Assembly: GCF_900188065.1 (NCBI RefSeq)
Contig: NZ_FZNQ01000001.1
Span: 1 to 64,000 of the forward strand
Length of the DNA: 64,000 nucleotides
Direction: 5' to 3'
From: Halorubrum vacuolatum
Lineage (GTDB): Archaea > Halobacteriota > Halobacteria > Halobacteriales > Haloferacaceae
The notes under the pieces are model-generated. The model saw only the letters and a program-made list of their open reading frames with translations, was not told the origin of the DNA and did no database searches. Made by a program: the position numbers and the translations under genes. Shown piece after piece: positions 7,117 to 59,199 of the stretch; positions within the stretch are counted from its first letter, which is position 1, and the number at the start of each line of letters is the position of its first letter.

Positions 7117-7209
7117 ACACGATTTGAGCGGCCCGATGGGTAAAGCATCCACGATCGTCGGATCATCCCTCCGAGTTATACCGAGAACGGCCAGTTATTA
7201 CTCTAAAAT

Positions 7210-7220
7210 GATAAATTATT
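7210..7220 (+). promoter_or_regulatory. TATA-like promoter for the gene at 7246
   Basis: GATAAATTATT, an A/T-rich run in high-GC surroundings, ends 25 nt before ATG 7246. This is the distance expected for a leaderless haloarchaeal transcript. The A/T-rich stretch 7196-7221 also lies upstream of the divergent dph6 gene. Confidence 0.5.
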
Positions 7221-7245
7221 ACAGCCACGGCCGCGATCGGTCGAC

Positions 7246-8562: not shown

Positions 8563-8584
8563 GCCGACCGAACTGGATCGTCCA

Positions 8585-9409
8585 TCAGTGGAGTTCCGCA
8601 CGAAGCGCGTCGTTCATCGCCCCGACCGGTGCCGTCTCTCCGGTCCAGATCTCGAAGGCCTCGACGCCCTGGTAGAGGAGCATCCACGCGCCGTCGACCG
8701 TCGTCGCGCCGGCCGCAGCCGCCTCGCGGAGGAGCCGCGTCTCGATCGGGGTATAAACGGCGTCGAGGACGGCGAGGTCCGCATGGAGGTGGTCGGCGGG
8801 AACCGGCGTCTCCGTGGGGGCCTCCATGCCGACGCTCGTCGCGTTAACGAGGACGTCGGCCGACGCGACGTGCTCACCGAGGTCCGAGAGTCCGCCACCG
8901 GTCGCGCCCGGGACGTCACGTGCCAGATCCTCGGCCCGTTCGGCGGTTCGGTTCGCGATGTGAACCGTCGCGCCAGCGTCCGCGAGCGCGAACGCGGCCG
9001 CCCGCCCCGCCCCGCCCGCGCCGACAACGACGGCATCGGTTCCCGAGAGCGCGACACCGTGGTGTTCGAAGGCCCGCGTGACGCCGGCGGCATCCGTGTT
9101 GTGGCCCCGCGGGCGGTCGCCCGCCCCGTCGCGAATCGGGCCGAAGTCGATCGTGTTGACGGCGCCGATCCGCTCGGCGAGCGGGTCGACGGCGACGGAC
9201 TCCAGCACGTCCTGTTTAAAAGGGATCGTCACATTCAATCCGGCGACGCCGAGCGTCGCAGCGCTCTCGACAGCCTCCCTAGCGGCGTCGGGGGCGGGCT
9301 CGAACGTGACGTAGCGGGCGTCGAGGCCGAGCGCGTCATAACCCGCCTCGTGCATCGGCGGCGACAACGAATGGCCGACCGGGTGGCCGATCAGTCCGTA
9401 GACGTCCAT
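8585..9409 (-). CDS. aroE: Shikimate dehydrogenase AroE
   Basis: 274 residues beginning [20 protein letters not shown]. The substrate-binding SLSP motif (residues 15-18), the catalytic Lys in [17 protein letters not shown], the NADP-binding loop [11 protein letters not shown] and the C-terminal [16 protein letters not shown] are all present and in order. It reduces 3-dehydroshikimate to shikimate in aromatic amino-acid synthesis. Length is normal for the family. It is convergent with the PLP enzyme gene (stop-to-stop gap 22 nt) and divergent from the antiporter at 9511. No other shikimate-pathway gene is nearby. Confidence 0.95.
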
Positions 9410-13867: not shown

Positions 13868-14319
13868 TGGGGATCTTCTCGGTGAAGACGACCGCGAGCC
13901 AGGAGCGGACGGTCGCCGACATGATCGCCGAAAAGGAGATGCCGGAGATACACGCCGTCATCGCCCCCGACCAACTCACGAGTTACGTGATGGTCGAGGC
14001 GTCGAACGGCAACGTCTTCGCGCGGATCCTCGATGAGATCCCCCACGCCCGCGGCGTCATCGAGGGGGCGAACGGCCCCGCCGAGAGCCCGTTCTCGGAG
14101 GTCGAACACTTCCTTTCGCCGACCCCCGACGTCGAGGGGATCGCCGAGGGCGACATCGTCGAGCTCATCGCCGGTCCATTTAAAGGCGAGAAGGCGCGCG
14201 TCCAGCGTATCGACGAGGGCAAAGATCAGGTGACCGTCGAGCTGTACGAGGCGACCGTCCCGATCCCGGTGACGGTCCGCGGCGATCAGATCCGCGTGCT
14301 CGACTCCGACGAGCGGTGA
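13867..14319 (+). CDS. spt5: Transcription elongation factor Spt5 (NusG family)
   Basis: 150 residues. The NGN domain occupies roughly residues 1-85 ([17 protein letters not shown], then [17 protein letters not shown]), and the KOW domain follows with [18 protein letters not shown], a highly conserved motif. Archaeal Spt5 pairs with Spt4 on RNA polymerase and promotes processive elongation and coupling to translation. The start overlaps the secE stop. The last residues, VLDSDER, end the operon; a 54-nt gap follows before the unrelated oxidoreductase. Confidence 0.97.
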
Positions 14320-14373
14320 GGACGGGCGGAAACACCACCCCGGCTTTTTATTCGCTCCCGCGTTCCACCCAGT

Positions 14374-15522
14374 ATGCACGCCGTCGTGATCGGAGGGGGG
14401 ATCGTGGGGGTGGCGACCGCACATGCCCTCGCGGAGCGCGAGGTTGCGGTCACGCTGCTCGAACGCGACGCGCTCGGAACCGGCAGCACGGCACGTTCTG
14501 CGGGCGGGATCCGGACGCAGTTCTCGACGCCGGTGAACGTTCGCCTCTCGCTCGCCAGCCTCCCGGTCTGGGAGACGTTCGAGGAACGGTTCGACGTCGA
14601 TATCGGCTTTCATCAGCACGGCTACCTCTTTTTGGCCCGGACGGACGCGACGGCCGCGCGGTTCGAGGAGGCGGTCGGCATGCAGCGAGGGCTCGGTGTC
14701 GACGTCGAGCTGCTTTCGCCGGCAGAGGCGGCAGCGATCTGTCCGGGCCTGCGGGCCGATCGCTTCGTGGCGGCGACATACAACCCCCGCGACGGCTACG
14801 CGGATCCCAATCTCGCGGTACAGGGGTTTGCGGCCGCCGCCCGCGAGCGGGGGGCCGAGTTGCGGACCGGCGTGGCGGTTCGGGACCTCCACCTCGAGGG
14901 TGGGCGGATCGTCGGCGTCGAGACCACGGAAGGACGGATCGACGCCGACATGGTGATCAACGCGGCGGGTGCGTGGGCGGGACACGTCGTCGACCCGGCC
15001 GGCCGATCGCTTCCGATCGCGCCGCGTCGACGCCAGATCGCGGTCGTCAAGCCGGGGAGGGGGATACCGGCTGACCTCCCCCTCACCATCGACATGGACG
15101 CGGGCTCGTATTTCCGGCCCGAGGGGGAGGACACCGCGCTGGTCGGCGGTCACGCCGCGTCCGAGGACCCGGACGTCGATCCCGACGCGTATCCCACGTC
15201 GATGAACTTCGAGGAGGCGGTCGGCGCGCTCGAACGCGCCGCCGACTACACGACCTACTTCGACGGGGACACCCGGCTCGTGCGGGGATGGGCCGGTCTC
15301 TATGCAGTCACGCCGGATCGGCACCCGATCATCGAGGAGACCGCCCCGGGATTATACACCGTCGCCGGCTTCTCCGGGCACGGGTTCCAGCACGCGCCCG
15401 CAGCCGCCCGGTGCATCGCGGAGATCGCCCTCGACGGCGAGGCCGCGATCGAGGGTGTCGAGTCGCTATCGAGCGACCGTTTCGAGGACGAGGACGGACC
15501 CGTCGAGCAGAACGTCGCCTGA
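14374..15522 (+). CDS. FAD-dependent oxidoreductase (DAO family, sarcosine/glycine-oxidase-like)
   Basis: 382 residues. The N-terminal Rossmann motif is VVIGGGIVGVATAHALAE, and the segment STARSAGGIRTQFSTPVN is typical of the DadA/SoxB-like DAO fold. C-terminal motifs GWAGLYAVTPDRHPIIEE and VAGFSGHGFQHAPAAAR match sarcosine oxidase beta-like and dimethylglycine dehydrogenase-like enzymes. It should oxidise a secondary or primary amine, but no subunit genes or folate domain are adjacent, so the substrate is unknown. It starts 54 nt after spt5. A TATA-like TTTTTATTC at 14345-14353 suggests independent transcription. Confidence 0.8.
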   Translation: MHAVVIGGGIVGVATAHALAEREVAVTLLERDALGTGSTARSAGGIRTQFSTPVNVRLSLASLPVWETFEERFDVDIGFHQHGYLFLARTDATAARFEEAVGMQRGLGVDVELLSPAEAAAICPGLRADRFVAATYNPRDGYADPNLAVQGFAAAARERGAELRTGVAVRDLHLEGGRIVGVETTEGRIDADMVINAAGAWAGHVVDPAGRSLPIAPRRRQIAVVKPGRGIPADLPLTIDMDAGSYFRPEGEDTALVGGHAASEDPDVDPDAYPTSMNFEEAVGALERAADYTTYFDGDTRLVRGWAGLYAVTPDRHPIIEETAPGLYTVAGFSGHGFQHAPAAARCIAEIALDGEAAIEGVESLSSDRFEDEDGPVEQNVA

Positions 15523-15576
15523 TCGGGCGGCGTCGATCCCGCCGCATTCGATGACACGACGTATCGACCCCGCCGT

Positions 15577-15584
15577 CTTTATTC
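15577..15584 (+). promoter_or_regulatory. TATA-like box for the aldo/keto reductase gene
   Basis: CTTTATTC ends 27 nt before ATG 15612, in the usual place for a haloarchaeal leaderless promoter. Confidence 0.5.
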
Positions 15585-15611
15585 GGATCCGTGTCCTCGG
15601 TCGGAGCAACG

Positions 15612-16763
15612 ATGGCGACCCGCGAGGCCCTCTGGAACTATCGCAACGAGTTCGGTGACGCGTTCGGGCGCACGTACTTCCGACGGTTCGGGCCCGGAGT
15701 GATAGCGAGCATCGGGCTCGGGACGTATCGTGGCGAGCCGACGGATGCGGTCGATGGCGGCCTTCGGAAAGCAGTCGGGCTCGCGATACGCTCCGGCGTC
15801 AACGTTCTCGATACCGCAAGCAACTACCGTCATGGGCGCTCCGAACGGGTCATCGGCGAGGTGTTGAGGAACTCGTCGATCGAACGCGACGCGGTCATCG
15901 TCTCGACGAAGGGTGGGTTCGTCCCCTTCGAGGGGGGCGAACCGATCGACCGCACCGCATTCCTTCGCGATCGGTTTCTGAACCCGGGGATCCTCGAGGT
16001 CGATGACCTCGCGGGCGGGTCACACGCGCTAGCGCCGACCTTTCTGGAGTGGTCGCTCGACCGATCGCTTGAACGACTGGGCGTCGCGACGGTCGACTGT
16101 TATTATCTGCACAATCCGGAGACACAGCTCGCGGTACGTTCACGCTCGGCCGTCTACGACGCGATCGAGGACGGCTTGGAGCTGTTGGAACGACGGCGAC
16201 TCGCGGGCGACGTGGGGTGTTATGGCATCGCGACGTGGGAGGCGTTCCGGGTGCCCGAAACCCACGACTCGTATCTCTCGTTGACCGAGATACTCGCCCG
16301 TGCCGAGGCCGTCGGCGAACGGATCGGACCGACCGACGATCACGGGTTCGAAGCGCTACAGCTGCCGTTCAACGTCCACATGGCGGACGCGTTCACCCGG
16401 GCGAATCAGCGACCACCGAAGAAGGCTGCGCGCCCGTCCGATGGATCCGATCGAAGGACAAAAGGGACCGATGATGAGCGCCTGTCAACGCTCGAGTTGG
16501 CCCACGAGGCGGACCTCTCGGTGTTCACCAGCGCGAGCCTCGCAGGGGGCGATCTCGCGCGGATCGATGCGATCCCGCCGGCGGTCGATCGGGAACTCGC
16601 CGGCGACACGCCGGCTCAGCGGGCGATCAACTTCGCACGAAGCGCTCCCGGCGTCACGTGTGCACTCGTCGGCACAGCGGACCGCGATCATCTCAGCGAG
16701 AACGTCGCGGGCGGAACATTCGATCCGATGGGCGCGAAGGCGTTCGACTCGGTGTTTGTGTGA
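15612..16763 (+). CDS. Aldo/keto reductase family protein
   Basis: 383 residues from ATG 15612. The AKR barrel shows SIGLGTYRG, LDTASNYRHGRSERVIG (the catalytic Asp and Tyr pair), VIVSTKGGFVP and SLERLGVATVDCYYLHNPETQ. The C-terminal AINFARSAPGVTCALVGTADRDHL binds NADP. The family reduces aldehydes, ketones and sugars; the substrate is not indicated. It is larger than typical AKRs (about 320) because of acidic or Ser/Thr-rich insertions around residues 270-295. A weaker in-frame ATG at 15591 would add seven residues. Confidence 0.82.
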   Translation: MATREALWNYRNEFGDAFGRTYFRRFGPGVIASIGLGTYRGEPTDAVDGGLRKAVGLAIRSGVNVLDTASNYRHGRSERVIGEVLRNSSIERDAVIVSTKGGFVPFEGGEPIDRTAFLRDRFLNPGILEVDDLAGGSHALAPTFLEWSLDRSLERLGVATVDCYYLHNPETQLAVRSRSAVYDAIEDGLELLERRRLAGDVGCYGIATWEAFRVPETHDSYLSLTEILARAEAVGERIGPTDDHGFEALQLPFNVHMADAFTRANQRPPKKAARPSDGSDRRTKGTDDERLSTLELAHEADLSVFTSASLAGGDLARIDAIPPAVDRELAGDTPAQRAINFARSAPGVTCALVGTADRDHLSENVAGGTFDPMGAKAFDSVFV

Positions 16764-16830
16764 CCGACACGAAGCGTCCCTCGTCCATGAGCACGCCACC
16801 GGGATCGGTTAAAAGAGGAGTAAACCCGAT

Positions 16831-17001
16831 CTATCGGAGTTCTTTGAACCGGAGCCCGCAGTCCGGACAGATCCGCACCGAAAAGACCTCATCGGGGTCG
16901 TTCTCCTTTTTCAGTCCGCGTTCACACGCGGCGCAGGTGAGCCGCTCGTAGTTGTCTTTATAGAGGTCGCCGTCGCGAAGCGCCTTCCGCGTTGATTTCA
17001 T
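16831..17001 (-). CDS. Zinc-finger micro-protein (HVO_0758-like)
   Basis: 56 residues, MKSTRKALRDGDLYKDNYER, with two CxxC pairs: LTCAACERGL and VRICPDCGLRF. It is very similar in layout to the small haloarchaeal zinc-finger proteins represented by HVO_0758 of Haloferax volcanii, which bind one zinc and affect growth and biofilm behaviour. Four Cys form the site and no DNA-binding helix is obvious. ATG 17001 fits the family length exactly. It is convergent with the aldo/keto reductase gene and has a TATA-like TTTATACC at 17026-17033 (reverse strand) upstream. Confidence 0.85.
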   Translation of the reverse strand: MKSTRKALRDGDLYKDNYERLTCAACERGLKKENDPDEVFSVRICPDCGLRFKELR

Positions 17002-17134
17002 ATGCGCGGATTGAACATCGGACGGTATAAAAACCCCGACCCTCGTCGGACGACCGTCCGACAGCGATGTGGTCGGGTACCCGAAAAGCGAGGCGGACCG
17101 AAACGACAAGGACGGTTCGGATAGAACGGCACGT

Positions 17135-17791
17135 ATGGCCACCCTCCTCGTCGTCGGCGGTAGCGGGTTTATCGGACGTGAGGTCTGTCGGCTTGCGGTC
17201 CGGGACGGACACGAGGTCCGGAGCATCTCACGTCGGGGCCCGCCAGCGGTCGATGCCCCGTGGACCGAGCAAGTCGCGTGGACGAGCGCGGACCTGTTCA
17301 GACCCGACGCGTGGCGAAGCCGTCTCGACGGCGTCGATATCGTGGTACACGCCGTCGGGACCATCACCGAAGCGCCGACGGACGGCGTCACGTTCGAGCG
17401 GATAAACGGCGATTCGGCGATCCTCACCGCGCTGGAAGCGGAACGGGCGGGTGTAGAGACGTTCGTCTTTCTCTCCTCGGCGGTGAAACCCCCCGGCGTC
17501 AGGCATGCGTATCTCTCCGCAAAACGACGCGCCGAGGCGGCTATTGCCGGGCTCTCCTTCGAGCACGTGACGCTTCGTCCCGGGCCGGTGTACGGCTCCG
17601 AACAACCGCACTTCCCGACATCCGTGAACACGATCCTCCGATTGGTCGGTTCGCTCACACCGCTTGCAGAGCGGCTCGGCGAGGCGCGGCCCCTCCCCGT
17701 CGAAACCGTCGCGCGGGCGGCCTATCGGAGCGCGCTCAATCCCGAGGAGACGCTTTTTGACGTCGAAGACATCCGACGGATCGGACAATGA
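17135..17791 (+). CDS. NAD-dependent epimerase/dehydratase-like (NDUFA9-type SDR)
   Basis: 218 residues from ATG 17135. The Rossmann motif is VVGGSGFIGREVCRLAV; the strand VDIVVHAVGTITEAP and the pair Tyr/Lys in YLSAKRRAEAAI mark an extended SDR. The segment LRPGPVYGSEQ is also typical of atypical SDRs of the NDUFA9/complex I-like group, which often bind NADP without obvious dehydrogenase activity. The protein is shorter than full epimerases (about 300). A possible start at 17069 adds 22 polar residues. It is 63 nt upstream of the MATE exporter and may be cotranscribed with it. Confidence 0.78.
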   Translation: MATLLVVGGSGFIGREVCRLAVRDGHEVRSISRRGPPAVDAPWTEQVAWTSADLFRPDAWRSRLDGVDIVVHAVGTITEAPTDGVTFERINGDSAILTALEAERAGVETFVFLSSAVKPPGVRHAYLSAKRRAEAAIAGLSFEHVTLRPGPVYGSEQPHFPTSVNTILRLVGSLTPLAERLGEARPLPVETVARAAYRSALNPEETLFDVEDIRRIGQ

Positions 17792-49424: not shown

Positions 49425-49799
49425 CTACGAGAGATGGGCGGTGACGTCCGTCGAGGAAACCATGCCGACGTAGTCGTCCTCGACGACCGGCAGGTGTTTG
49501 ACGCCATACATCGTCATCATCGCGGCGACCTCCTCCATGAGCAGGTCGGGCGTGACGGTTTCGACGTTCTCCGTCATGACGTCCGAGACGGCCGTCGTGG
49601 CGACGTCCTCGCCGTTTGCGACCGCGTCGATGATGTCCGTCTGGGTGATGATCGATCGCGATCCGGCCGTCACCACCAGCGCGCTGATGTTCTTTTCGCG
49701 CATCTTCCGCGCGGCGTCCTGGACGGACGCGTTCGGTTCGACCGTTTCGAGCGGCGTCGACATCACTTCGGCGACGCGGGTCCGCTTATCAGGATCCAT
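49425..49799 (-). CDS. CBS-domain pair protein 1
   Basis: 124 residues from ATG 49799: DPDKRTRVAEVMSTPLETVE, then a first CBS domain (ASVQDAARKMREKNISALVV) and a second (TPDLLMEEVAAMMTMYGVKH), ending GMVSSTDVTAHLS. CBS pairs sense adenine nucleotides or SAM. It shares its layout and C-terminal TDLTAHLxx motif with the CBS protein directly upstream at 49900, on the same strand, so the two are likely tandem duplicates with separate starts 100 nt apart. No fused output domain. Confidence 0.88.
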   Translation of the reverse strand: MDPDKRTRVAEVMSTPLETVEPNASVQDAARKMREKNISALVVTAGSRSIITQTDIIDAVANGEDVATTAVSDVMTENVETVTPDLLMEEVAAMMTMYGVKHLPVVEDDYVGMVSSTDVTAHLS

Positions 49800-49899
49800 A
49801 GCTCTTCGTTGCCACTGACGTACATGGTCCTTTCGGCGGGCCGAAGCGTTGCCGCGGAACACCGAACGCGAAAACGGCTCGCAAGGATGACGGAACGGG

Positions 49900-50286
49900 T
49901 TACAGCCCCGCCAGGTGGGCGGTGAGGTCCGTCGTCGAGAGCATCCCGATCACCTCGTCATCCGTCGTCGTAACCGGATAGTGGGAGTATCCCGCGGTCG
50001 TGAGCAGGTCGGCGACGTCCGAGAGGGTGTCCTGCGGGCCAACCGTCACGACATCGGTGGTCATGGCGTCGCCGACGGGAGTTTCGTCCTCCGGATCGTT
50101 TTCACGCACCAATCGAACGAAGTCCGTTGCGGTGAGGAGGCCGCGGAGCCGGTCGGCCGCGTCGACGACGAGGACTGATCCCACACCCGCCTCAAGCATG
50201 CGCCCCGCGGCGGTGGAGACGGTCGCGTCGTCATCGACGGTGTGCAACTCGTTCGACATCACCCGTGCGACGAAGACGTCGTCCAT
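49900..50286 (-). CDS. CBS-domain pair protein 2
   Basis: 128 residues from ATG 50286: MDDVFVARVMSNELHTVDDD, then two CBS domains (TVSTAAGRMLEAGVGSVLVV and TLSDVADLLTTAGYSHYPVT), ending MLSTTDLTAHLAGL. Very similar in length and pattern to the downstream CBS protein at 49425. It likely binds adenosyl ligands and may regulate a partner in trans. A TATA-like AGTATATTAA (50309-50318) on the minus strand lies about 25 nt from the start, so it is probably leaderless. Confidence 0.88.
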   Translation of the reverse strand: MDDVFVARVMSNELHTVDDDATVSTAAGRMLEAGVGSVLVVDAADRLRGLLTATDFVRLVRENDPEDETPVGDAMTTDVVTVGPQDTLSDVADLLTTAGYSHYPVTTTDDEVIGMLSTTDLTAHLAGL

Positions 50287-50308
50287 GTTGTTTGGTAACG
50301 TAGCGCAG

Positions 50309-50318
50309 TATATTAAGT
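50309..50318 (-). promoter_or_regulatory. TATA-like box for CBS gene 2
   Basis: On the minus strand the sequence reads TTAATATACT, 23-32 nt before ATG 50286; surrounding DNA is GC-rich. This position fits a leaderless haloarchaeal promoter. Confidence 0.55.
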
Positions 50319-50359
50319 TGGACGGCGATCGCCGTCGGGCCCCGCCGGTCACTCCCGGG

Positions 50360-51157
50360 TCAGGTCGGAAGGAGATACTCGGGGGCGCCGGCGAGTCCCG
50401 CGAGCGCCTCCGCTTCGACGTGATGGAGATCGCCAGGGATGACGAGGAGGTGCAGGGGATCGCCGAACGACCGGGTCGCGAGCGCGGAGAGCGTGTCGGC
50501 AGCCACGAGCGGCTCCGGCGATCCGGCGCGAGCGACGACGACGGCGAGGACGTCCTCCCAGCCGGCCGCGAGCAGCTCGGCCGCATTGTCGGCGGGCATA
50601 TACTCCTCGTGCTCGGGGTCCGGCCCCTTCGGGCCCATACCGACCTTGATATCGAGGTAGACGAGGGTGTGAAGTCCGCGCTCGCGGTTCGCCTCGATGG
50701 CATCGATCACGCTCGCCGGCACGCCGTCGCCGCCGTGGGCGTACGGGAACGGGAGCGTCACCGCCTTTCCGAACCGATAGTTCTGCAGACCCGTCAGCCC
50801 GGCCGCGGCCGTCTGGGCGGTGACGCCATGGATCACCCGTGTCTCGATCCCGCGTGCCTCCGCGCGCATCCGAAGGTCCGTGTGGGTCGTCGAGATCATG
50901 GTATCACCCGCGGTGAGAAACGCCGCATCGCCGGTTTCTGCGGCCGAGAGGATCGCCTCCGGGTCGCGCTCGACGCCCTCGCGCGAACGGACCTCGATCC
51001 GGACGTCGTGATGCCGCTCCAAGTCCGTGACGTCGGCGCCGACCAATCGGCTGGTGTAGAACTCCGCGAAGACCGAATCCGCCGCCCGGAGCGCCTCACG
51101 GCCCTCTACGGTGATCGAACGTTCATCATAGAGGCCGAGTCCGATGAAGGTGAGCAT
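50360..51157 (-). CDS. dphB: Diphthine synthase DphB
   Basis: 265 residues from ATG 51157. MLTFIGLGLYDERSITVEGR, AAFLTAGDTMISTTHTDLRM, RVIHGVTAQTAAAGLTGLQN and TLVYLDIKVGMGPKGPDPEH match the SAM-dependent tetrapyrrole-methylase-fold enzyme that trimethylates the histidine side chain on elongation factor 2. An ATG at 51229 would add a leader without family match. TATA-like GTTTTATTT on the minus strand lies at about 51178-51188. Dph6, the last enzyme of the pathway, is at 6400 in this window. Confidence 0.95.
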   Translation of the reverse strand: MLTFIGLGLYDERSITVEGREALRAADSVFAEFYTSRLVGADVTDLERHHDVRIEVRSREGVERDPEAILSAAETGDAAFLTAGDTMISTTHTDLRMRAEARGIETRVIHGVTAQTAAAGLTGLQNYRFGKAVTLPFPYAHGGDGVPASVIDAIEANRERGLHTLVYLDIKVGMGPKGPDPEHEEYMPADNAAELLAAGWEDVLAVVVARAGSPEPLVAADTLSALATRSFGDPLHLLVIPGDLHHVEAEALAGLAGAPEYLLPT

Positions 51158-51322
51158 ACCACCGATGGGATCCGCGGAAAAATAAAACACGTCGGGATCG
51201 TCGCGACCGGCTTGCAGTCGGCGGATCATTCACGATCGTTCCTTGTGAATCCATAGCAAGCCCTAAGAGGTGACCAACGTAACATCGATCCACTAGGCCT
51301 GCCCAGGGCCCAGACCCATAAT

Positions 51323-53218
51323 ATGACTGACGAAGAACTCATCTGGCGGATCTCGGGAGGATCCGGGGACGGGATCGCTTCCACGAGCCAGAACTTCGCG
51401 AAGGCCCTGATGCGATCGGGGCTCAACGTATTCACGCATCGGCACTATCCGTCGCGGATCCGTGGCGGCCACACCTACACGGAGATCCGTGCGGCCGCGG
51501 AACCGGTGAAATCACGGGGCGACGGCTACAACTTCCTGCTCGCGCTCGGCGACTCCTTCGCGCGGAACCCACAGGAGGAGGCGCTGTACGGGAACGAGGA
51601 GATCAAGCCGCTCTCGGAGAACCTCGATGAGCTCCGTGAGGGCGGCGTCATCGTCTACGACGCCGGGCTGCTCGACACCTCGGAGATCCCTGACTTCGAC
51701 GAGCGCGCCGAGGAGAACGGATGGCACGTCTATCCGCTCGACCTCCGTGGACTCGCCCGCGAGCAGGGCCGCGAAGTCATGCGAAACACCGCGGGTGTCG
51801 GCGCGACCTGTGCGCTCATCGGCATGGAACTCTCCTACGTCGAAGAGCTCATGCGCGATGCGATGCCCGAGAAGATCCTGGATCCGAACCTCGAGATCCT
51901 CAACATCGCCTACGAACAGGTGATCGACGAACACGATGTCGACGCCCACGACGTACAGATCCCCACGGGCGAACACGAGTCGGACCAGCTGCTCATGTCC
52001 GGCTCCGACGCCATCGCCTACGGCGCCATCGACGAAGGCTGTCGGTTCATCGCCGGCTACCCGATGACGCCGTGGACAGAGGTGTTCACGATCATGAGCC
52101 AGAACCTGCCCAAGCTGGGTGGGATCTCCGAACAGGTCGAAGACGAGATCGCCGCCGCAGCGCTCGCCGTCGGCGCATCGCACGCCGGCGTCAAGGCGAT
52201 GTCCGGCTCCTCCGGGGGCGGCTTCGCGCTCATGTCCGAGCCGCTCGGGCTCGCCGAGATGACCGAGACGCCCGTCGTGCTGTTGGAAGCCATGCGCGCG
52301 GGTCCCTCGACCGGGATGCCGACGAAACCGGAGCAGTCGGACCTCGAACACGTCCTCTACACCTCCCAAGGGGACTCCCAGCGCGTCGTCCTCGCGCCGG
52401 GGACCGTCGAGGAGGCCTACGAGCAGTCGCGGCTCGCGTTCCGGATCGCCTACGAGTACCAGATCCCGGTCGTCCTGCTGTACGACCAGAAGCTCGGCGG
52501 CGAGCTGATGAACGTGCCGCGTGACGCCTTCGATCGGGAGCCGAACCCCGAACTCTACCACACCCTCACCGAGGAGGAGCTGCCGGAGCAGCCTCACTCC
52601 GCCGACGGGAAGTTCCACCGGTACCAACACGACGTCGAAAACGGCGTCTCGCCCCGGTCGCTTCCCGGCCAGCAGGGCGGTCGCTACCTCGCGTCGGGTA
52701 ACGAACACGACCCGACGGGCCACATCAGCGAGTCGCCCGACAACCGGGTCGCCCAGATCGACCGCCGGGCCGAGAAGCTGGCGGCGATCCGCGCCGACCT
52801 CGACACCGAGTCGACACAGTCACACCACGGCCCGGAGGAGGCCGACTACGGGATCATGACGTTCGGCAGCCAGCAGGGAACCGTCGAGGAGGCGGTCGAC
52901 GTGCTCAACGCGGCCGGCCACTCGGTGAAGTCGCTCGGCGTTTCGGACATGTTGCCGTTCCCGAGCGAGGAGGTCGAGGCGTTCATCGAGAGCGTCGATG
53001 AGGTGCTCGTGGTCGAGATGACCGCGTCCGGACAGTTCCGTGGCCTCGTCCAGAAGAACCTTGGCCGACACGGCGAGAAGCTGTCGAGCCTATTGAAATA
53101 CAACGGAAACCCGTTCGAACCGGCCGAGATCGTCGACGGCTTCGAGGCCGTCATCATCGAGGACGGGACGGACGACCCCGCACATCAGACCACTTTCGTC
53201 CCAGCGGCAGGTGACTAA
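51323..53218 (+). CDS. korA: 2-oxoacid:ferredoxin oxidoreductase subunit alpha KorA
   Basis: 631 residues. The N-terminal gamma-like domain (about 1-195) opens LIWRISGGSGDGIASTSQNF and contains RHYPSRIRGGHTYTEI. The alpha domain follows (QLLMSGSDAIAYGAIDEGCR, FIAGYPMTPWTEVF and SGSSGGGFALMSEPLGLAEM), and the C-terminal part (about 500-631) binds CoA. This fused arrangement is typical of haloarchaeal KorA/PorA. With KorB it decarboxylates pyruvate or 2-oxoglutarate and reduces ferredoxin. Its stop is 2 nt before korB. Confidence 0.95.
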   Translation: MTDEELIWRISGGSGDGIASTSQNFAKALMRSGLNVFTHRHYPSRIRGGHTYTEIRAAAEPVKSRGDGYNFLLALGDSFARNPQEEALYGNEEIKPLSENLDELREGGVIVYDAGLLDTSEIPDFDERAEENGWHVYPLDLRGLAREQGREVMRNTAGVGATCALIGMELSYVEELMRDAMPEKILDPNLEILNIAYEQVIDEHDVDAHDVQIPTGEHESDQLLMSGSDAIAYGAIDEGCRFIAGYPMTPWTEVFTIMSQNLPKLGGISEQVEDEIAAAALAVGASHAGVKAMSGSSGGGFALMSEPLGLAEMTETPVVLLEAMRAGPSTGMPTKPEQSDLEHVLYTSQGDSQRVVLAPGTVEEAYEQSRLAFRIAYEYQIPVVLLYDQKLGGELMNVPRDAFDREPNPELYHTLTEEELPEQPHSADGKFHRYQHDVENGVSPRSLPGQQGGRYLASGNEHDPTGHISESPDNRVAQIDRRAEKLAAIRADLDTESTQSHHGPEEADYGIMTFGSQQGTVEEAVDVLNAAGHSVKSLGVSDMLPFPSEEVEAFIESVDEVLVVEMTASGQFRGLVQKNLGRHGEKLSSLLKYNGNPFEPAEIVDGFEAVIIEDGTDDPAHQTTFVPAAGD

Positions 53219-53220
53219 CA

Positions 53221-54159
53221 ATGAGCGCATTCTCAGCAATCAACGAGGAACGCGAGATCGACCGAGACGAGTACACCCCGAGCGTCGAACCACAGCCCAC
53301 GTGGTGTCCCGGCTGCGGTGACTTCAGCGTCCTGAAGGCGCTGAAGCAGGCGCTTCCGGAGGTCGGACGCACCCCGGAGGAAACGCTTCTGTGTACGGGG
53401 ATCGGCTGTTCCGGAAAACTGAACAGCTACCTCGACACCTACGGGTTCCACACCCTTCACGGACGCTCGCTACCCGTCGCCCGTGCGGCGAAGCTGGCGA
53501 ACCCCGGTCTCGAGGTCATCGCCGCCGGCGGTGACGGTGACGGCTATGGGATCGGTGCCGGCCACTTCATCCACAGCGCCCGGGAGAACCACGATATGAC
53601 CTACATCGTCTTCAACAACGAGATCTTCGGACTGACGAAGGGGCAGACCTCGCCCACCAGCCCGAAGGGGCACAAATCGAAGACGCAGCCGTCCGGCAGC
53701 GCCAAGCAGCCGCTCAAGCCGCTTTCGCTGGCGCTGAAAGCCGGGGCGTCCTACGTCGCTCGAACCGCGGCGGTCAACCCCAACCAGGCGAAGGAGATCC
53801 TCATCGAGGCCATCGAACACGACGGCTTCGCCCACGTCGACTTCCTGACGCAGTGCCCGACGTGGAACAAGGACGCACGCCAGTACGTCCCCTACATCGA
53901 CGTCAACGACTCCGACGAGTACGACTTCGATAGGACCGACAGCGTCGAGGCCGCACAGATGATGCACGAGACCGAACAGGCGCTCCACGAGGGGAAGGTG
54001 CTCACCGGACGCTACTACGTCGATGAGGACCGCCCGTCCTACGGGCAGGAGAAGCGTGCGCTCGGCGAGATGCCCGAGGAGCCGCTGGCGGAACGCTACT
54101 GGGACGACGACTACGAGTGGGAGCGGTCGTACGACCTGTTCCTCGACAAGCACGCCTGA
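53221..54159 (+). CDS. korB: 2-oxoacid:ferredoxin oxidoreductase subunit beta KorB
   Basis: 312 residues. The iron-sulfur/ThDP region WCPGCGDFSVLKALKQALPE, TGIGCSGKLNSYLDTYGFHT, AGGDGDGYGIGAGHFIHSAR (ThDP-binding GDG...NNE) and FGLTKGQTSPTSPKGHKSKT are all present. Pairs with KorA. An Lrp-type regulator follows 91 nt downstream. Length is normal. Confidence 0.96.
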   Translation: MSAFSAINEEREIDRDEYTPSVEPQPTWCPGCGDFSVLKALKQALPEVGRTPEETLLCTGIGCSGKLNSYLDTYGFHTLHGRSLPVARAAKLANPGLEVIAAGGDGDGYGIGAGHFIHSARENHDMTYIVFNNEIFGLTKGQTSPTSPKGHKSKTQPSGSAKQPLKPLSLALKAGASYVARTAAVNPNQAKEILIEAIEHDGFAHVDFLTQCPTWNKDARQYVPYIDVNDSDEYDFDRTDSVEAAQMMHETEQALHEGKVLTGRYYVDEDRPSYGQEKRALGEMPEEPLAERYWDDDYEWERSYDLFLDKHA

Positions 54160-54182
54160 TCGGGAGGTCGATCGGACAGCGA

Positions 54183-54203
54183 ACGGTCGCGGGTCGCGAC
54201 CGT
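54183..54203 (+). terminator. Strong hairpin between korB and lrp
   Basis: ACGGTCGCG, loop GGT, CGCGACCGT: a perfect 9-bp stem. It lies 24 nt after the korB stop and about 20 nt before a run of six T at 54223-54228. It could end korAB transcripts or act as an operator for the Lrp gene, whose start is 48 nt later. The two roles cannot be separated by eye. Confidence 0.5.
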
Positions 54204-54250
54204 GTTTACGGATTCGCAAGGTATTTTTTCTGCCCCGACAAGGAGTCTAT

Positions 54251-54679
54251 ATGAGTACCGTATCGACGGAGGAACGAATCCTCTCGGTGTTAGAGGAGGA
54301 CGCACAGGCCTCCTGTGGTGAGATCGCCGAACGGGCCGATGTCTCGAAGCCCACGGTCAGAAAGTACGTGAGCAAACTGGAGGAGGAGGGCGTCATCGTC
54401 GGCTACTCGGCGGATATCGATCCGAAGAAGCTCTCCTCACAGACGATCGCCATGGTCGGGATGGACGTCGACTCCGGACGCTACGTGGAGGCGACCCGTG
54501 CCATCAAAGCGCTCCCGGAGGTCGAGACCCTCTACACCTCCTCCGGGGATCATATGCTGATGGCCGAGGTGCGCGCGGCCGACGGCGACGAACTCGGCGA
54601 CGTCATCTCCGAGAAGCTCCTCGCGATCGACGGCGTCACCGCCGCACATCCCTCCTTCCTGCAGGAACGGCTGAAGTGA
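54251..54679 (+). CDS. Lrp/AsnC family transcriptional regulator
   Basis: 142 residues from ATG 54251, with AGGAG directly before. N-terminal winged HTH (about 5-55: ERILSVLEEDAQASCGEIAE then SKPTVRKYVSKLEEEGVIVG) and a C-terminal RAM/ASNC domain (about 65-140: QTIAMVGMDVDSGRY, then VETLYTSSGDHMLMAEVRA). Such proteins form octamers and sense amino acids or related metabolites. Its position after korAB suggests it regulates 2-oxoacid metabolism; TATA-like TATTTTTTC lies at 54222-54230. Confidence 0.93.
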   Translation: MSTVSTEERILSVLEEDAQASCGEIAERADVSKPTVRKYVSKLEEEGVIVGYSADIDPKKLSSQTIAMVGMDVDSGRYVEATRAIKALPEVETLYTSSGDHMLMAEVRAADGDELGDVISEKLLAIDGVTAAHPSFLQERLK

Positions 54680-54692
54680 GGCGGATCGTTGC

Positions 54693-56252
54693 TCACTCCT
54701 CAAACCGTGAGAGCGACGTCTGTGTCGCATCCGGCCCCGGCTCCTGAATGTCCGCCGACGAGTGACCTCGACCACGGCCCCGACGCGAGAGCGACGCGCG
54801 CCGCCGAACCTCCGGGTCGGCGAGCGCGCGTTTCGCGGCCGGTTCGATCGCATCGAACGCCTCCATTGCCCGCGTGCGAGCGGTCTCGTACGCGACGACC
54901 GGATACGGATAGTCCTCGCCGATTTCGATGCCACACGACTCCTGGACATGGATCGGCGTCCGCTCGGGTCGTTCGAGGTACCGGGTCGGAAGCGGAGTCA
55001 GCTCGGGGACCCACGTACGAACGAACGATCCGTCCGGGTCGTTCTCACGGACCTGTTTTCGGGGATTGTAGATCCGCCGCATATTGACGCCGACCATGCC
55101 CACCTGCGTCTGAAACTGGCTGTAGTTGATCGCCGGATCCGCATCGATGAGGTGATAATAGAACCAGTCGGCGCCGATCCGCCACGGCTGTCCGAGCAGG
55201 TCACAGAGGAACGAGGCACACATCGCCCGCATGCGGAAATTGAGCCAGCCGGTCTCGGCGAGACAGCGCATCGAGGCGTCGACCATCGGGTAGCCGGTCT
55301 CCCCACGCTTCCATGCCTCGATCAACGCGGCGTCCCGCTCCTCCTCCCGGAATCCCTCCATCGCTGGGTTGACCGCAGTGTCCATCCAGCCCGACCAGTC
55401 GGCGAGTTTCTGTGTGTAATGCCGGTTCCAGTAGAGCCGCGAGATGAACGCCTCCCGACCGCGACACGAGGGGGCATCCTCACGGACGGTCTGATATACC
55501 TCGCGGATGGAGAGGCAACCGAAGCGGAGGTATGGGGAGAGCCGGCTCGTCCCCTCCCACGCGTCCGTCGGCGAGGAGACGTTGCCGAGATACTCGGGAA
55601 GCCGATCGATGAACGCGTGGAGGCGTTCGAGGCCGGCCCGCCGCCCGCCGGCCGGAACCGACCGTTTCGTCGGGGTGAGGTCGTACCGGCCCTCCACCAC
55701 CGCGATCGAGACGCCGGTGTCGATGTCGGTGACGTCGAAACCGTCCGGATCCACCCGTCGCACGTCGCGCTCGAACCACCGTTCGACCGTCTCGCTCCAG
55801 CCGTCCCGCGTGTCCGCAGCGTCACGGACGAGGCCATCGTCGGCGATGAACCGCACGTCAAGCCGATCGGCGGCCGCGTCGTCGCGACGGAGTCCGTAGC
55901 GGCCCGTGGGTTCCGCGCCGGCGACGATATCCCAGCCGAGTCCGCTGAACTGCGAGAGCAGGTCGATCGGGGACCCCGACAGAAACGTCAACGACCCATC
56001 ATACGCGGTATATGCGCGATCGAGGTCCGCAAGCGATTCGTGGAGGAACCGACAGCGGGCATCACACGCCAGTCCATCGGTCCCGTAAAACCGGGGATCG
56101 AAGACGAACACCGGGCAGACGACATCGTACCGATCGGCGGCGAACGCCAGCGCGGGCGAATCGACCGTCCTGAGGTCGCGACGATGCCAGACGACACAGC
56201 CGTCATCGACCGTGGCGATCCGCTCCACCCACGACCCCGTGTCGTCGGTCAC
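54693..56252 (-). CDS. phr: Cryptochrome/DNA photolyase family protein
   Basis: 519 residues from GTG 56252 (GTG at 56228 also possible). The antenna-binding start is CVVWHRRDLRTVDSPALAFA; the FAD domain has RLYWNRHYTQKLADW, ETGYPMVDASMRCLAETGW, LNFRMRAMCASFLCDLL and INYSQFQTQVGMVGVNMRRI. NPRKQVRENDPDGSFVRTWV closes it. It repairs UV-induced pyrimidine dimers using light. The haloarchaeal C-terminal tail is extended and Arg/Ser-rich. It is convergent with lrp and divergent from the small gene at 56352. Confidence 0.9.
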   Translation of the reverse strand: MTDDTGSWVERIATVDDGCVVWHRRDLRTVDSPALAFAADRYDVVCPVFVFDPRFYGTDGLACDARCRFLHESLADLDRAYTAYDGSLTFLSGSPIDLLSQFSGLGWDIVAGAEPTGRYGLRRDDAAADRLDVRFIADDGLVRDAADTRDGWSETVERWFERDVRRVDPDGFDVTDIDTGVSIAVVEGRYDLTPTKRSVPAGGRRAGLERLHAFIDRLPEYLGNVSSPTDAWEGTSRLSPYLRFGCLSIREVYQTVREDAPSCRGREAFISRLYWNRHYTQKLADWSGWMDTAVNPAMEGFREEERDAALIEAWKRGETGYPMVDASMRCLAETGWLNFRMRAMCASFLCDLLGQPWRIGADWFYYHLIDADPAINYSQFQTQVGMVGVNMRRIYNPRKQVRENDPDGSFVRTWVPELTPLPTRYLERPERTPIHVQESCGIEIGEDYPYPVVAYETARTRAMEAFDAIEPAAKRALADPEVRRRASLSRRGRGRGHSSADIQEPGPDATQTSLSRFEE

Positions 56253-56351
56253 GTACGGATCTAGCGGCTGTGGCTCTTGAAGCCGTCGCCGGTGGCGAGA
56301 CGGTGCGTATCGACCTGTCGTGTTTATCCCCTCAGCGCGCATCTATCCCTC

Positions 56352-56609
56352 ATGACCGAGGAGATCAAGCTCTCGCGATTGGAAACGGAGTTGGAAACGC
56401 CGTCGTACCCGGCGGACCGCGAGGACCTCTCGAGGACCTACGCGGGGACGACGGTCTTGTATGCCGACGGCGAGGAGGACTTGGGCGAGTTGATCGATCG
56501 GGTCCCACAGTCGACGTTCGAGGACCCGGAGGATCTCTTTCTCGCCGTACAGAACGCGCTCCCGATCGAGGCGGTCGGTGAGCCGGGGCAGTCCGACGGC
56601 GACGCGTAA
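56352..56609 (+). CDS. Small haloarchaeal DUF5789-like protein
   Basis: 85 residues from ATG 56352, MTEEIKLSRLETELETPSYP. The segment LYADGEEDLGELIDRVPQST and DPEDLFLAVQNALPIEAVGEPG match the small haloarchaeal DUF5789/DUF2795-like proteins of unknown function. It is acidic and soluble. Divergent from the photolyase gene; a 72-nt gap precedes tfs, so cotranscription with tfs is less likely since tfs has a clear TATA box. Confidence 0.8.
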   Translation: MTEEIKLSRLETELETPSYPADREDLSRTYAGTTVLYADGEEDLGELIDRVPQSTFEDPEDLFLAVQNALPIEAVGEPGQSDGDA

Positions 56610-56652
56610 CTCGATTGGAGGGGGCGTCGACCCGACGAACAGGATCCAGCCG

Positions 56653-56660
56653 TTTATATG
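56653..56660 (+). promoter_or_regulatory. TATA box of tfs
   Basis: TTTATATG, ending 21 nt before ATG 56682: a well-placed haloarchaeal promoter for a leaderless transcript. Confidence 0.6.
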
Positions 56661-56681
56661 TGATCCGCCGCTGGATTCGCC

Positions 56682-57008
56682 ATGAAGTTCTGCGATGAGT
56701 GCGGCTCGATGATGAAGTCCGGCGAGGGTGCGGACCATTGGGTCTGTGGCTCCTGCGGCTATGAGGTCGGGAGGGAGGCCGATGAGACCGAGGACGCGTG
56801 GATCACCGACGCCCAGGAGGAGTCGGAGGTCATCGACGTCAGCGACGTGGAGGATACCGGCCTCCCAACGACGGACGCGCACTGCCCGAGCTGTGAGAAC
56901 GATCGGGCCTACTGGTACATGCAACAGATCCGGTCGGCCGACGAGTCCGAGACCAGGTTCTTCGTCTGCACCGCGTGCGAACACAAGTGGCGCGAGGACG
57001 ACCACTGA
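56682..57008 (+). CDS. tfs: Transcription factor S (TFS/RPB9-like)
   Basis: 108 residues. N-terminal zinc ribbon MKFCDECGSMM with CGSCGY, an acidic linker, and C-terminal ribbon CPSCENDRAYWYMQQIRSAD, then FFVCTACEHKW. The acidic pair in SADESET is the catalytic hairpin tip that stimulates RNA cleavage in backtracked polymerase. This fits archaeal TFS, the TFIIS homologue. The gap to the next gene is 60 nt. Confidence 0.94.
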   Translation: MKFCDECGSMMKSGEGADHWVCGSCGYEVGREADETEDAWITDAQEESEVIDVSDVEDTGLPTTDAHCPSCENDRAYWYMQQIRSADESETRFFVCTACEHKWREDDH

Positions 57009-57068
57009 GGGAACCGGCTACGAGGAGAAGCGACCGTTTTTAAATACGAACCGTGAGAACGCGTGACT

Positions 57069-57587
57069 ATGGAGCCCTCTCCACCTCGGGTACCGACGGA
57101 CCGTCTACAGGGGTGGAAGATCGTCTCCGAGGCTGTCGAACGGCCGTTTTCGGCCGGGCCCGTCTCCGTGATCGCCGGGACGGTCAGATATGAACCGACG
57201 GACACCGCGGAGCCGAGGCCGTTCTTTTTCGCGAGCCGGCTGTACATCCGTCCCGAGACCGGTCCGAACCCGATGCTGACGCGGCTCGTCGAGCGGGGCG
57301 CACGCGACGGTTTTCGGGAGCGGCTGGCCGAAAACGACATCGACGGCGTCGATCACCGACACACCCGCGAGCTCCCGATCGACGAACCGCCGGACACGAT
57401 GGCGACCGCCGACACGTTTCGGGGACGCTGCCTCGTCGATGGTGAGCCGGTTCCCGTGGAGGCGATGCTCGCTGTCTGGGAGGCCGAGGGGTACCTCCTT
57501 GCCGGCGGGGCCTATCCCCTCGTCGACGACGTGGACGGCGCACGCCGCAGGCTCCGGCGGATCGTTCGGGGTGTGCGATCCGAGTAG
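57069..57587 (+). CDS. Hypothetical haloarchaeal protein
   Basis: 172 residues from ATG 57069 (GTG 57063 also in frame). Mixed alpha/beta, soluble, with SVIAGTVRYEPTDTAEPRPF, then FFFASRLYIRPETGPNPMLT and MLAVWEAEGYLLAGGAYPLV. I do not recognise a family and see no catalytic motif. Conserved-looking internal pattern and normal acidic composition suggest a real gene. TATA-like TTTTTAAATACG at 57037-57048 precedes it. Confidence 0.6.
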   Translation: MEPSPPRVPTDRLQGWKIVSEAVERPFSAGPVSVIAGTVRYEPTDTAEPRPFFFASRLYIRPETGPNPMLTRLVERGARDGFRERLAENDIDGVDHRHTRELPIDEPPDTMATADTFRGRCLVDGEPVPVEAMLAVWEAEGYLLAGGAYPLVDDVDGARRRLRRIVRGVRSE

Positions 57588-57679
57588 CGCGTCATCCATC
57601 CCTCCTCGGTCCGACGCGTGTCGGCACACTTCGCCGCCGTGCCCGCGTTTAAGAGGATGACCGTCATTGCAGCGATGTC

Positions 57680-58168
57680 ATGCATCCACGCGCGGCGGAG
57701 TTCGCGGAACGGGTCGAAGAACGGTACGGGATCACGATCGACGTCTCGGAGTTCGACGAGGGGACGAAGACGGCCGCGGCGGCGGCGGAAGCCGTCGGCT
57801 GTGAGACGGCCGCAATCGCCTCAACGATCGTGGTTGCGCTCGCCGGCGGCGAGCGGGACGGCGAGTTAGTCGCCGGGATCACGAGCGGCGCGAACCGGCT
57901 CGATCTCGACGCGATCGCGACACACTTCGATGCCGACGCGGCCGAGATGGGTTCCCCGGAACGGATCCGTGAGACGGTCGGCTGGAGCATCGGCGGCGTT
58001 CCGCCCCTCTGTCATGAAACCACGATCCCGACCGTCTTCGACCCGACGCTTCTGGAATACGACGTGGTCTACGGCGCGGCGGGCACCCCGAGCGCGCTCT
58101 TTGCGATCGATCCGGAGACACTCGTCGACCTCGCGGACGCGAGCGTCGTCGACGTAACCGAGTCTTAA
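57680..58168 (+). CDS. YbaK/ProX-type aminoacyl-tRNA deacylase
   Basis: 162 residues, MHPRAAEFAERVEERYGITI. The deacylase fold shows KTAAAAAEAVGCETAAIAST, SGANRLDLDAIATHF and GWSIGGVPPLCHETTIPTVF with the conserved GxPP element, then VYGAAGTPSALFAIDP. YbaK/ProXp proteins hydrolyse mischarged Cys- or Ala-tRNAPro. No prolyl-tRNA synthetase is adjacent. A start at MHPRAAEF fits the family. Confidence 0.88.
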   Translation: MHPRAAEFAERVEERYGITIDVSEFDEGTKTAAAAAEAVGCETAAIASTIVVALAGGERDGELVAGITSGANRLDLDAIATHFDADAAEMGSPERIRETVGWSIGGVPPLCHETTIPTVFDPTLLEYDVVYGAAGTPSALFAIDPETLVDLADASVVDVTES

Positions 58169-58257
58169 CAACTCCATCAGTGAGATAATACACAAAATAA
58201 TAAAATAGACTAAAGAGATAATAACATATATGTGGGTGGCGCTTTTACATGGGATAG
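58169..58257 (+). promoter_or_regulatory. A/T-rich promoter region of the His-rich lipoprotein gene
   Basis: From about 58176 to 58232 the composition changes sharply to A/T (AATACACAAAATAATAAAAT and CTAAAGAGATAATAACATAT). A TATA-like CATATATG at 58225-58232 ends 25 nt before ATG 58258. The rest could be a regulator-binding or upstream activating region; no exact palindrome is apparent. It contrasts with every neighbouring intergenic region. Confidence 0.5.
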
Positions 58258-59199
58258 ATGCCACGGAACACCTCAGCACACGCCTCCCGCCGACGCGTGC
58301 TCTTCGGAACCGCCGGGCTCGCAACCGTCGCGCTCGCTGGCTGTGCCGACGAAGAGGACCCCGACCCGGAAGCGGATGACGATGGAGCCGAGGCCGATGA
58401 TTCGGACGACGACGGCGCGTCGCCCACCGCGGCGAGCGTGACCCTGCTCGTTGAAGGAGTCGGCGGTCACGACCACGACGACGACCATCATGATGATCAC
58501 GACCACGACGATCACAGCGACGACTATCATGATGATTATGGCGACGACCACCACGACGACTATCATGATGATCATGGCGACGACCACCACGACGACGACC
58601 ACCATGATGATCATGGCGGCGACCACCACGACGACGACCACCATGATGATCATGGCGACGACCACCACGACGACCACGACGGGGAACTCTCGGAGGACGA
58701 GATCGACCACGCCTGTGGCCACCTTGAGTTCGACGACCCGGAGCCGTTAGCGGGCGGTTCCTCCGTGGACGATGCGCCGGTTATCTCCTCGACACACGAG
58801 CCGTATGACGTGAGCATCGAAGGCGACTCGACATTCGTCGTGTTCGAAGCCGATGACGACGACGGTGATGATCATCACGACGACCATAGCGATGATCACC
58901 ATGACGACCACGGCGACGAACATCACGACGACCACGGCGACGAACATCACGACGACCACGGCGACGAACATCACGACGACCACGGCGACGAACATCACGA
59001 CGACCACGATGATCACGACCACGATCATGGCGACGGGGACATCTTCGGCTTTTTCACGACCAACGGGACTGCCTCGATTCACGAGGGGCACGTCCTGCAC
59101 GAGGAGGATGCCGTCGAAACCTGCGCCGAGATCGACCGCTATGTCGTCGCCGAAGCGGACCACGGTCGCGTCGTCGTCGAGTTGATCCCTGACGAGTAA
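58258..59199 (+). CDS. Histidine/aspartate-repeat Tat lipoprotein, putative metal-binding
   Basis: 313 residues. A Tat signal with twin arginine (SRRRVLFGTAGL) ends in a lipobox at Cys29 (ALAGC). An acidic spacer precedes a short beta strand (ASVTLLVEGVGG), then a first His/Asp tract of about 75 residues with repeats such as GDDHHDDDHHDDHG. A middle domain (ELSEDEIDHACGHLEFDDP, YDVSIEGDSTFVVFEADDD) separates a second tract of repeats of GDEHHDDH. The C-terminal part (IFGFFTTNGTASIHEGHV) contains one more Cys. It should be anchored outside the membrane and bind Zn, Ni, Cu or Co. No ABC transporter is adjacent. Confidence 0.75.
   Translation: MPRNTSAHASRRRVLFGTAGLATVALAGCADEEDPDPEADDDGAEADDSDDDGASPTAASVTLLVEGVGGHDHDDDHHDDHDHDDHSDDYHDDYGDDHHDDYHDDHGDDHHDDDHHDDHGGDHHDDDHHDDHGDDHHDDHDGELSEDEIDHACGHLEFDDPEPLAGGSSVDDAPVISSTHEPYDVSIEGDSTFVVFEADDDDGDDHHDDHSDDHHDDHGDEHHDDHGDEHHDDHGDEHHDDHGDEHHDDHDDHDHDHGDGDIFGFFTTNGTASIHEGHVLHEEDAVETCAEIDRYVVAEADHGRVVVELIPDE
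58466..58680. repeat. First His/Asp-coding tract (imperfect tandem repeats)
   Basis: Repeats built on CACCACGACGAC and CATGATGATCATGGCGACGA, with 24-36 bp periods. They encode HHDD and DDHGD units. The DNA-level copies are almost identical in 58555-58670. Confidence 0.8.
58864..59030. repeat. Second His/Asp-coding tract (24-bp repeat)
   Basis: A 24-bp unit, CACGACGACCACGGCGACGA plus ACAT, occurs in four near-identical copies from about 58902 to 59000, encoding HDDHGDEH. Flanked by less regular copies. Confidence 0.85.

Follow-up and report, generated by a model that had tools for sequence, protein, structure and literature searches.

The window analyzed here, a 64,000-nucleotide stretch from Halorubrum vacuolatum, contains a gene for a 313-residue lipoprotein that is strikingly rich in His and Asp. 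Features of the gene and of the sequence directly upstream, all on the plus strand, are as follows.

58197–58224, plus strand: candidate metal-regulator operator ATAATA-N16-TAATAA, with 2 mismatches to TTATTA-N16-TAATAA, 33 nt before the ATG
58225–58231, plus strand: putative TATA-like box (catatat) immediately following the operator, from reading of the sequence
58258–59199, plus strand: gene of the His/Asp-rich Tat lipoprotein, 313 aa, assigned from the open reading frame and homologues at 11 loci
58258–58344, plus strand: predicted twin-arginine signal peptide and lipobox, with Cys29 as the lipidated residue
58435–58467, plus strand: conserved N-terminal segment SVTLLVEGVGG, also found in L061, L050, L058 and other homologues
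58465–58680, plus strand: His/Asp tract 1, residues 70–141, with 25 His and 37 Asp (composition, DNA repeats)
58681–58869, plus strand: N-terminal half of domain A, residues 142–204, with invariant HACxH (151–155) and TH (179–180) (16-sequence alignment)
58870–59028, plus strand: His/Asp tract 2, residues 205–257, with 21 His and 23 Asp, within a loop of domain A (alignment, composition, DNA repeats)
59029–59196, plus strand: C-terminal half of domain A, residues 258–313, with invariant Cys289 (16-sequence alignment)

The signal peptide and lipobox, which read SRRRVLFGTAGLATVALAGC, have the form of a haloarchaeal Tat lipoprotein, and the protein ends in VVVELIPDE. It contains 54 His and 90 Asp residues, with 46 of the 54 His inside the two tracts, and its maximum of 21 His per 60 residues (median, 3) ranks third among the 572 predicted proteins of the loci examined, where the ranks above and just below are mostly taken by its own homologues. 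Both tracts are encoded by tandemly repeated DNA (a 39-bp unit in 5.3 copies; a 24-bp unit in 6.4 copies, 90% match), and structured segments lie at about residues 60–70, 142–204, and 258–313. The two HHDD-type tracts in a twin-arginine lipoprotein, the unusual His/Asp density, and the short structured domains around the tracts that were proposed in a preliminary description of this DNA thus agree with the reading frame, the signal, the lipobox, and the counts. Its remark on a sharply A/T-rich 5' region is likewise borne out (58169–58257 has 33% G+C vs. about 60–70% around it), its suggestion of a regulator site there gains support from the candidate operator, and its observation that no transporter adjoins the gene holds for the whole window and the following 16 kb.

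With the tracts removed, residues 142–204 and 258–313 form a single domain of ~110 residues, named domain A, which on sequence grounds constitutes an undescribed domain family, in keeping with the earlier failure to recognize one. The window protein, with or without its tracts, has no Pfam match up to E=1, be it to PF01297 (the ZnuA/TroA cluster A-I substrate-binding proteins), ZinT, ZrgA/PA4063, or Pht, and none in NCBIfam; a PDB profile search with domain A returned chance matches only (best E=1), a viral-contig scan found no relative, and an AlphaFold prediction from an input of two sequences gave a pLDDT of 39.9, too low for a usable model. A sequence search (E<=0.01) placed domain A in 34 of 391 Halobacteria genomes, the weakest of these matches being doubtful, and a profile search of 393 genomes of the phylum confined it to the same order. 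Invariant among 16 aligned sequences are HACxH, D, TH, F, F, G, C, and Y, including two Cys; in the lipoprotein these residues, Cys153 and Cys289, could possibly form a disulfide. Tract 2 interrupts domain A within a loop that, in L058, L060, L063, and L056, is short or carries no tract, and the domain occurs in two forms, THxPYDV, mostly with long His/Asp tracts, and THVIWEV, with almost none. The preliminary description had counted on homologues that keep the frame to keep the His tracts as well; most znu-linked homologues do, but several frame proteins (201–229 aa, in L052, L056, L057, and L077) have 5–8 His in total. As some frame homologues lack tracts, it is the frame that defines the family, to which the tracts are an accessory feature. 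Large surface proteins of 889–951 aa (L049 5676–8345, L052 7815–10640, L054 8816–11605, and L056 8454–11309) also carry the domain, in two to four copies each; the first of them has a weak PGF-CTERM match.

The partner of the lipoprotein, given as unknown in the preliminary description, can now be named from its homologues. In the neighborhoods examined, genes for ZnuA, an ATPase, and an ABC-3 permease lie directly downstream of the homologues or nearby, and all 11–12 other homologues with His/Asp tracts are in or adjoining znu operons. A copy of domain A adjoins a ZnuA gene or lies within it in 21 of the 27 haloarchaeal genomes examined that carry the domain (six carry it without such linkage); given one to six ZnuA genes in a genome of 2–5 Mb, we estimate that the two would fall within 5 kb of each other by chance with a probability on the order of 1% per genome. 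Every linked operon also has ZnuA. ZnuA best matches AztC/AdcA, and the ABC ATPase best matches AztA. In four genomes, moreover, domain A and a His tract interrupt the PF01297 match at about profile position 100 (e.g., L063 and L064), which we take to be the site of the ZnuA His-rich loop.

A rearrangement parted the window lipoprotein from its own ZnuABC, which now lies on another contig. In Halorubrum sp. JWXQ-INN 858 (L061, the same as L022), ZnuABC, HTTM, and the lipoprotein are encoded in one stretch, in the order thioesterase, DUF393-like, permease, ATPase, ZnuA, HTTM-like, lipoprotein, YbaK-like, and, further on, oxoacid oxidoreductase (the flanking names being our reading of the sequences). 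By tblastn, the part to the left of the lipoprotein corresponds, with its order kept, to contig C65 (L091) of the window genome, with identities over the aligned part of 75% for ZnuA, 84% for the ATPase, and 93% for the permease, whereas the part from the lipoprotein onward corresponds to 49428–59199 of the window. Both breakpoints lie far from the ends of their contigs (C39, 488 kb; C65, 144 kb), so the separation is real. A second ZnuABC of the window genome, on contig C28 (L092), is preceded by a different His/Asp-rich lipoprotein (8205–9143) with two copies of domain B (DDHWHG...HGDHVHIIG), an undescribed His-containing domain of ~100 aa that has no Pfam match and only chance-level matches in a PDB profile search (best E=0.32). 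Domain B recurs in the His/Asp-rich lipoproteins of L074, L078, L049, L052, and L051 and is inserted in the ZnuA of L091, L050, and L092. In L049, ZnuABC and two surface proteins with domain A/B are immediately followed by genes of a CbiMNQO-type cobalt/nickel importer (14885–17618).

The separated genes still share a promoter element, the consensus TTATTA-N16-TAATAA, common to the upstream sequences of lipoprotein and znu genes. The first promoter pattern tried missed the window gene, which the N16 form matches with 2 mismatches; the distance from operator to start codon is 33 nt here, 32 nt for znuA, and 31–41 nt for the other members. Dinucleotide shuffles of the 89-bp upstream region yielded such a site anywhere with P=0.03 and at the 30–38 nt position with P=0.0035. 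A spacing of 16 is represented by 48 near-perfect pairs in the fetched loci vs. 0–2 at most other spacings, although further peaks at 13 and 19 stem from shifted TTATTATTA runs and smaller counts occur at 25–29. In 16 genomes, 21 exact copies of the pattern were found vs. one of a reversed control, and a site with at most one mismatch precedes 38 of 75 zinc-linked genes vs. 2 of 494 others in all loci (Fisher p about 1e-35, a value that is partly circular and overstates the independent evidence, because about 15 of the 75 had suggested the motif). In the 3.48-Mb window genome, operators with 0–1 mismatch occupy only four places, namely upstream of znuA#1, upstream of the lipoprotein-znuABC#2 operon, and in the COG0523/FAD-enzyme and NikR-like/COG0523 divergent promoters. 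Sites in other genomes precede znuA, domain A genes, COG0523 genes, NikR-like genes, and a conserved FAD enzyme, and no efflux gene was encountered among the genes that carry a site; at the one-mismatch level, unrelated genes are also preceded by sites in some genomes, as the control count predicts. Sites with 2 mismatches are not enriched genome-wide (28 vs. 39 in the reversed control), so the case for the window site draws on its position and the shuffle test rather than on the genome count alone.

The best candidate for the regulator is a predicted protein with a NikR_C domain (L092 13484–13894, minus strand; PF08753, E=2.7e-18) and an operator in its own promoter, which is shared with a divergent gene for a ZigA-like COG0523 GTPase (13995–15203, plus strand) on C28; similar NikR-like/COG0523 arrangements are found in L131/L159 and L130/L173. 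NikR is classically a nickel sensor. The candidate falls under three NCBIfam NikR cut-offs (82 bits vs. 111, 82 vs. 105, and 72 vs. 83), and the COG0523 proteins of L092 score 331–417 bits with ZigA, below its cut-off of 600, vs. 118–140 with CobW; the window genome has two such ZigA-like GTPases downstream of TTATTA-N16-TAATAA. Most genomes have a core NikR-like orthologue, at about 50% identity, that lacks an N16 site at the usual place. In L132–L150, core NikR-like orthologues follow a TTAATA-N16-(T/A)TTATTA-like sequence that ends about 1 nt before the start codon and is possibly an autoregulatory site of a different form.

We consider it likely that the window protein is an accessory zinc-binding lipoprotein of the haloarchaeal ZnuABC importer and a member of a zinc-starvation regulon. 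After export by the Tat pathway and anchoring on the outside of the membrane, it would bind Zn2+ both through its disordered His/Asp tracts and at the putative His site of folded domain A. The tracts would enrich Zn2+ close to the membrane, from where domain A would deliver it to ZnuA, increasing what is locally available to the importer when zinc is limiting. The inverted repeat TTATTA-N16-TAATAA would be bound by a repressor in its metal-loaded state, most likely a ribbon-helix-helix protein of the NikR family, and the lipoprotein gene would be turned on together with znuABC and the ZigA-like COG0523 GTPases when zinc is scarce. The znuA1C1B1 operon of H. volcanii, studied as a putative zinc importer, is transcribed from 4 nt before its ATG (PMC8155600); by analogy, the operator would end near -30 and overlap the BRE/TATA region, which would suit a repressor. 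The preliminary description had proposed a possible extracellular metal sponge, of which the extracytoplasmic location and a metal-handling role are supported, whereas the passive role gives way to that of a capture-and-delivery accessory for zinc import, which probably fits better.

Although the domain family is new, functional analogues are known, and the capture and transfer steps proposed above are modeled on two of them, PhtD and ZrgA. PhtD, a surface His-rich protein encoded with the zinc-binding AdcAII, has been shown to pass Zn2+ to it (PMC3842936); unlike the window protein with its HHDD-type tracts, it is bacterial, carries HxxHxH triads in a folded repeat, and is devoid of domain A. 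ZrgA (V. cholerae ZrgABCDE; P. aeruginosa PA4063) is the secreted zinc-binding protein of a zinc importer operon and has a long disordered His/Asp/Glu loop in a beta-containing, ferredoxin-like fold with a conserved disulfide, the loop adding dispensable low-affinity sites (PMC9820375). Tract 2, placed by alignment inside a domain with two invariant Cys, matches this pattern of a His-rich loop and a conserved Cys pair; nevertheless, no sequence similarity and no common HACxH motif were detected between the two proteins, and ZrgA is periplasmic whereas the window protein is a predicted Tat lipoprotein. ZinT and the ZinT-like domain of AdcA provide an extracytoplasmic accessory protein that feeds ZnuA and is also found fused to a ZnuA-type binding protein (PMC3842936), but the window protein matches no Pfam family and fusion of domain A is at the His loop instead of the C terminus. 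ZepA of Anabaena is likewise an exported zinc-handling protein under a zinc regulator, but it is Zur-regulated, has a PEP-CTERM two-domain fold, and is reported by its authors to have no archaeal homologues (PMC10957091); an NCBIfam search found no PEP-CTERM match in the window protein. The ZnuA His-rich loop occupies the same place in the pathway and would be the insertion point of domain A in the four fusion genomes, whereas here the counterpart is, in most cases, a lipoprotein of its own that contains a folded domain. As for regulation, NikR sites (GTATGA-N16-TCATAC) also consist of hexamer half-sites 16 bp apart (PMC7055735), and the NikR_C gene described above has a site in its divergent promoter; here, however, the half-site is TTATTA, the regulon is of zinc type, and binding by the NikR-like protein is predicted.

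Among other explanations, the most credible, albeit an unlikely one, is that replication slippage produced the tracts, which would have no function of their own, and that domain A alone carries the function, as the tandem repeats in the DNA, the tract-poor homologues, and the dispensability in vivo of the ZrgA His-rich loop (PMC9820375) would allow. Both tract positions are nevertheless His/Asp-rich in most of the 11–12 znu-linked homologues while the repeat units differ, which suggests selection on composition. Many of the tract-poor domain A proteins have the operator or a ZnuA gene nearby, so a metal-uptake role would survive without the tracts. It is also unlikely that the same architecture imports nickel or cobalt, with the ABC system, lipoprotein, and COG0523 proteins serving nickel or B12 metabolism and a true NikR in control. 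Such a system would accord with the NikR_C domain of the candidate regulator, an operator geometry equal to that of NikR (PMC7055735), CbiL near L092 16869–17657, and the CbiMNQO genes downstream in L049; on the other side stand COG0523 scores far higher with ZigA than with CobW or HypB, the best matches of ZnuA and the ATPase to zinc families (AztC, AdcA, and AztA), the position of the NikR-like proteins below the NikR equivalog cut-offs, and the growth defect at high zinc that follows deletion of an H. volcanii sRNA that lowers znuA1C1B1 expression (PMC8155600).

That domain A is itself the substrate-binding protein, docking directly on ZnuB, appears improbable: ZrgA, a substrate-binding protein of unrelated fold that has a conserved disulfide and a loop rich in His, sets a precedent (PMC9820375), yet ZnuA is present in every linked operon, and where fused to it, domain A would act with ZnuA and not in its stead. 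Very improbable is a passive extracytoplasmic buffer or detoxifying sponge that does not supply the importer, an idea that the dense ligands and variable length of the tracts might inspire, but against which speak a promoter element common to importers and metallochaperones, the lack of efflux genes among the site-bearing genes, and the fusion of domain A into the importer's binding protein.

The control of zinc uptake in archaea is poorly known. Archaeal genomes have been reported to be without a recognizable Zur, and the sole archaeal zinc-regulator prediction found is the DtxR-like ZntR of Methanosarcina (PMC2770081). In the open-access literature, no earlier report of a haloarchaeal zinc regulon was found, nor one of a NikR-type zinc regulator in haloarchaea. 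In this regard, the conserved promoter element provides a testable haloarchaeal zinc regulon, the analysis names a candidate sensor, and a putative function is assigned to unannotated, strikingly His/Asp-rich surface proteins. The pairing of a disordered His-rich collector with a ZnuA receptor suggests independent use of this arrangement in a hypersaline archaeal setting. A broader proposal, to which we give an even chance, is that a NikR-family repressor at TTATTA-N16-TAATAA replaces Zur in a haloarchaeal zinc-starvation regulon that also deploys zinc-capture domains A and B as His/Asp-rich lipoproteins, multi-domain surface proteins, and ZnuA His-loop insertions.

Further genes are associated with the operator. 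A conserved FAD/NAD-binding enzyme (GGGIHGTYLAQRLL) occurs with COG0523 under the operator in L092 (6448–7713), L171, L173, L176, and L177. In the window itself, a 2-mismatch operator at 7195–7222, between 6400–7152 (minus strand) and 7246–8562 (plus strand), may be due to chance. Lastly, NitT/TauT-like ABC substrate-binding lipoproteins in L113 (468–1496, minus strand) and L117 (502–1497, minus strand) have an exact operator at the start codon, and their substrate is possibly a metal complex.
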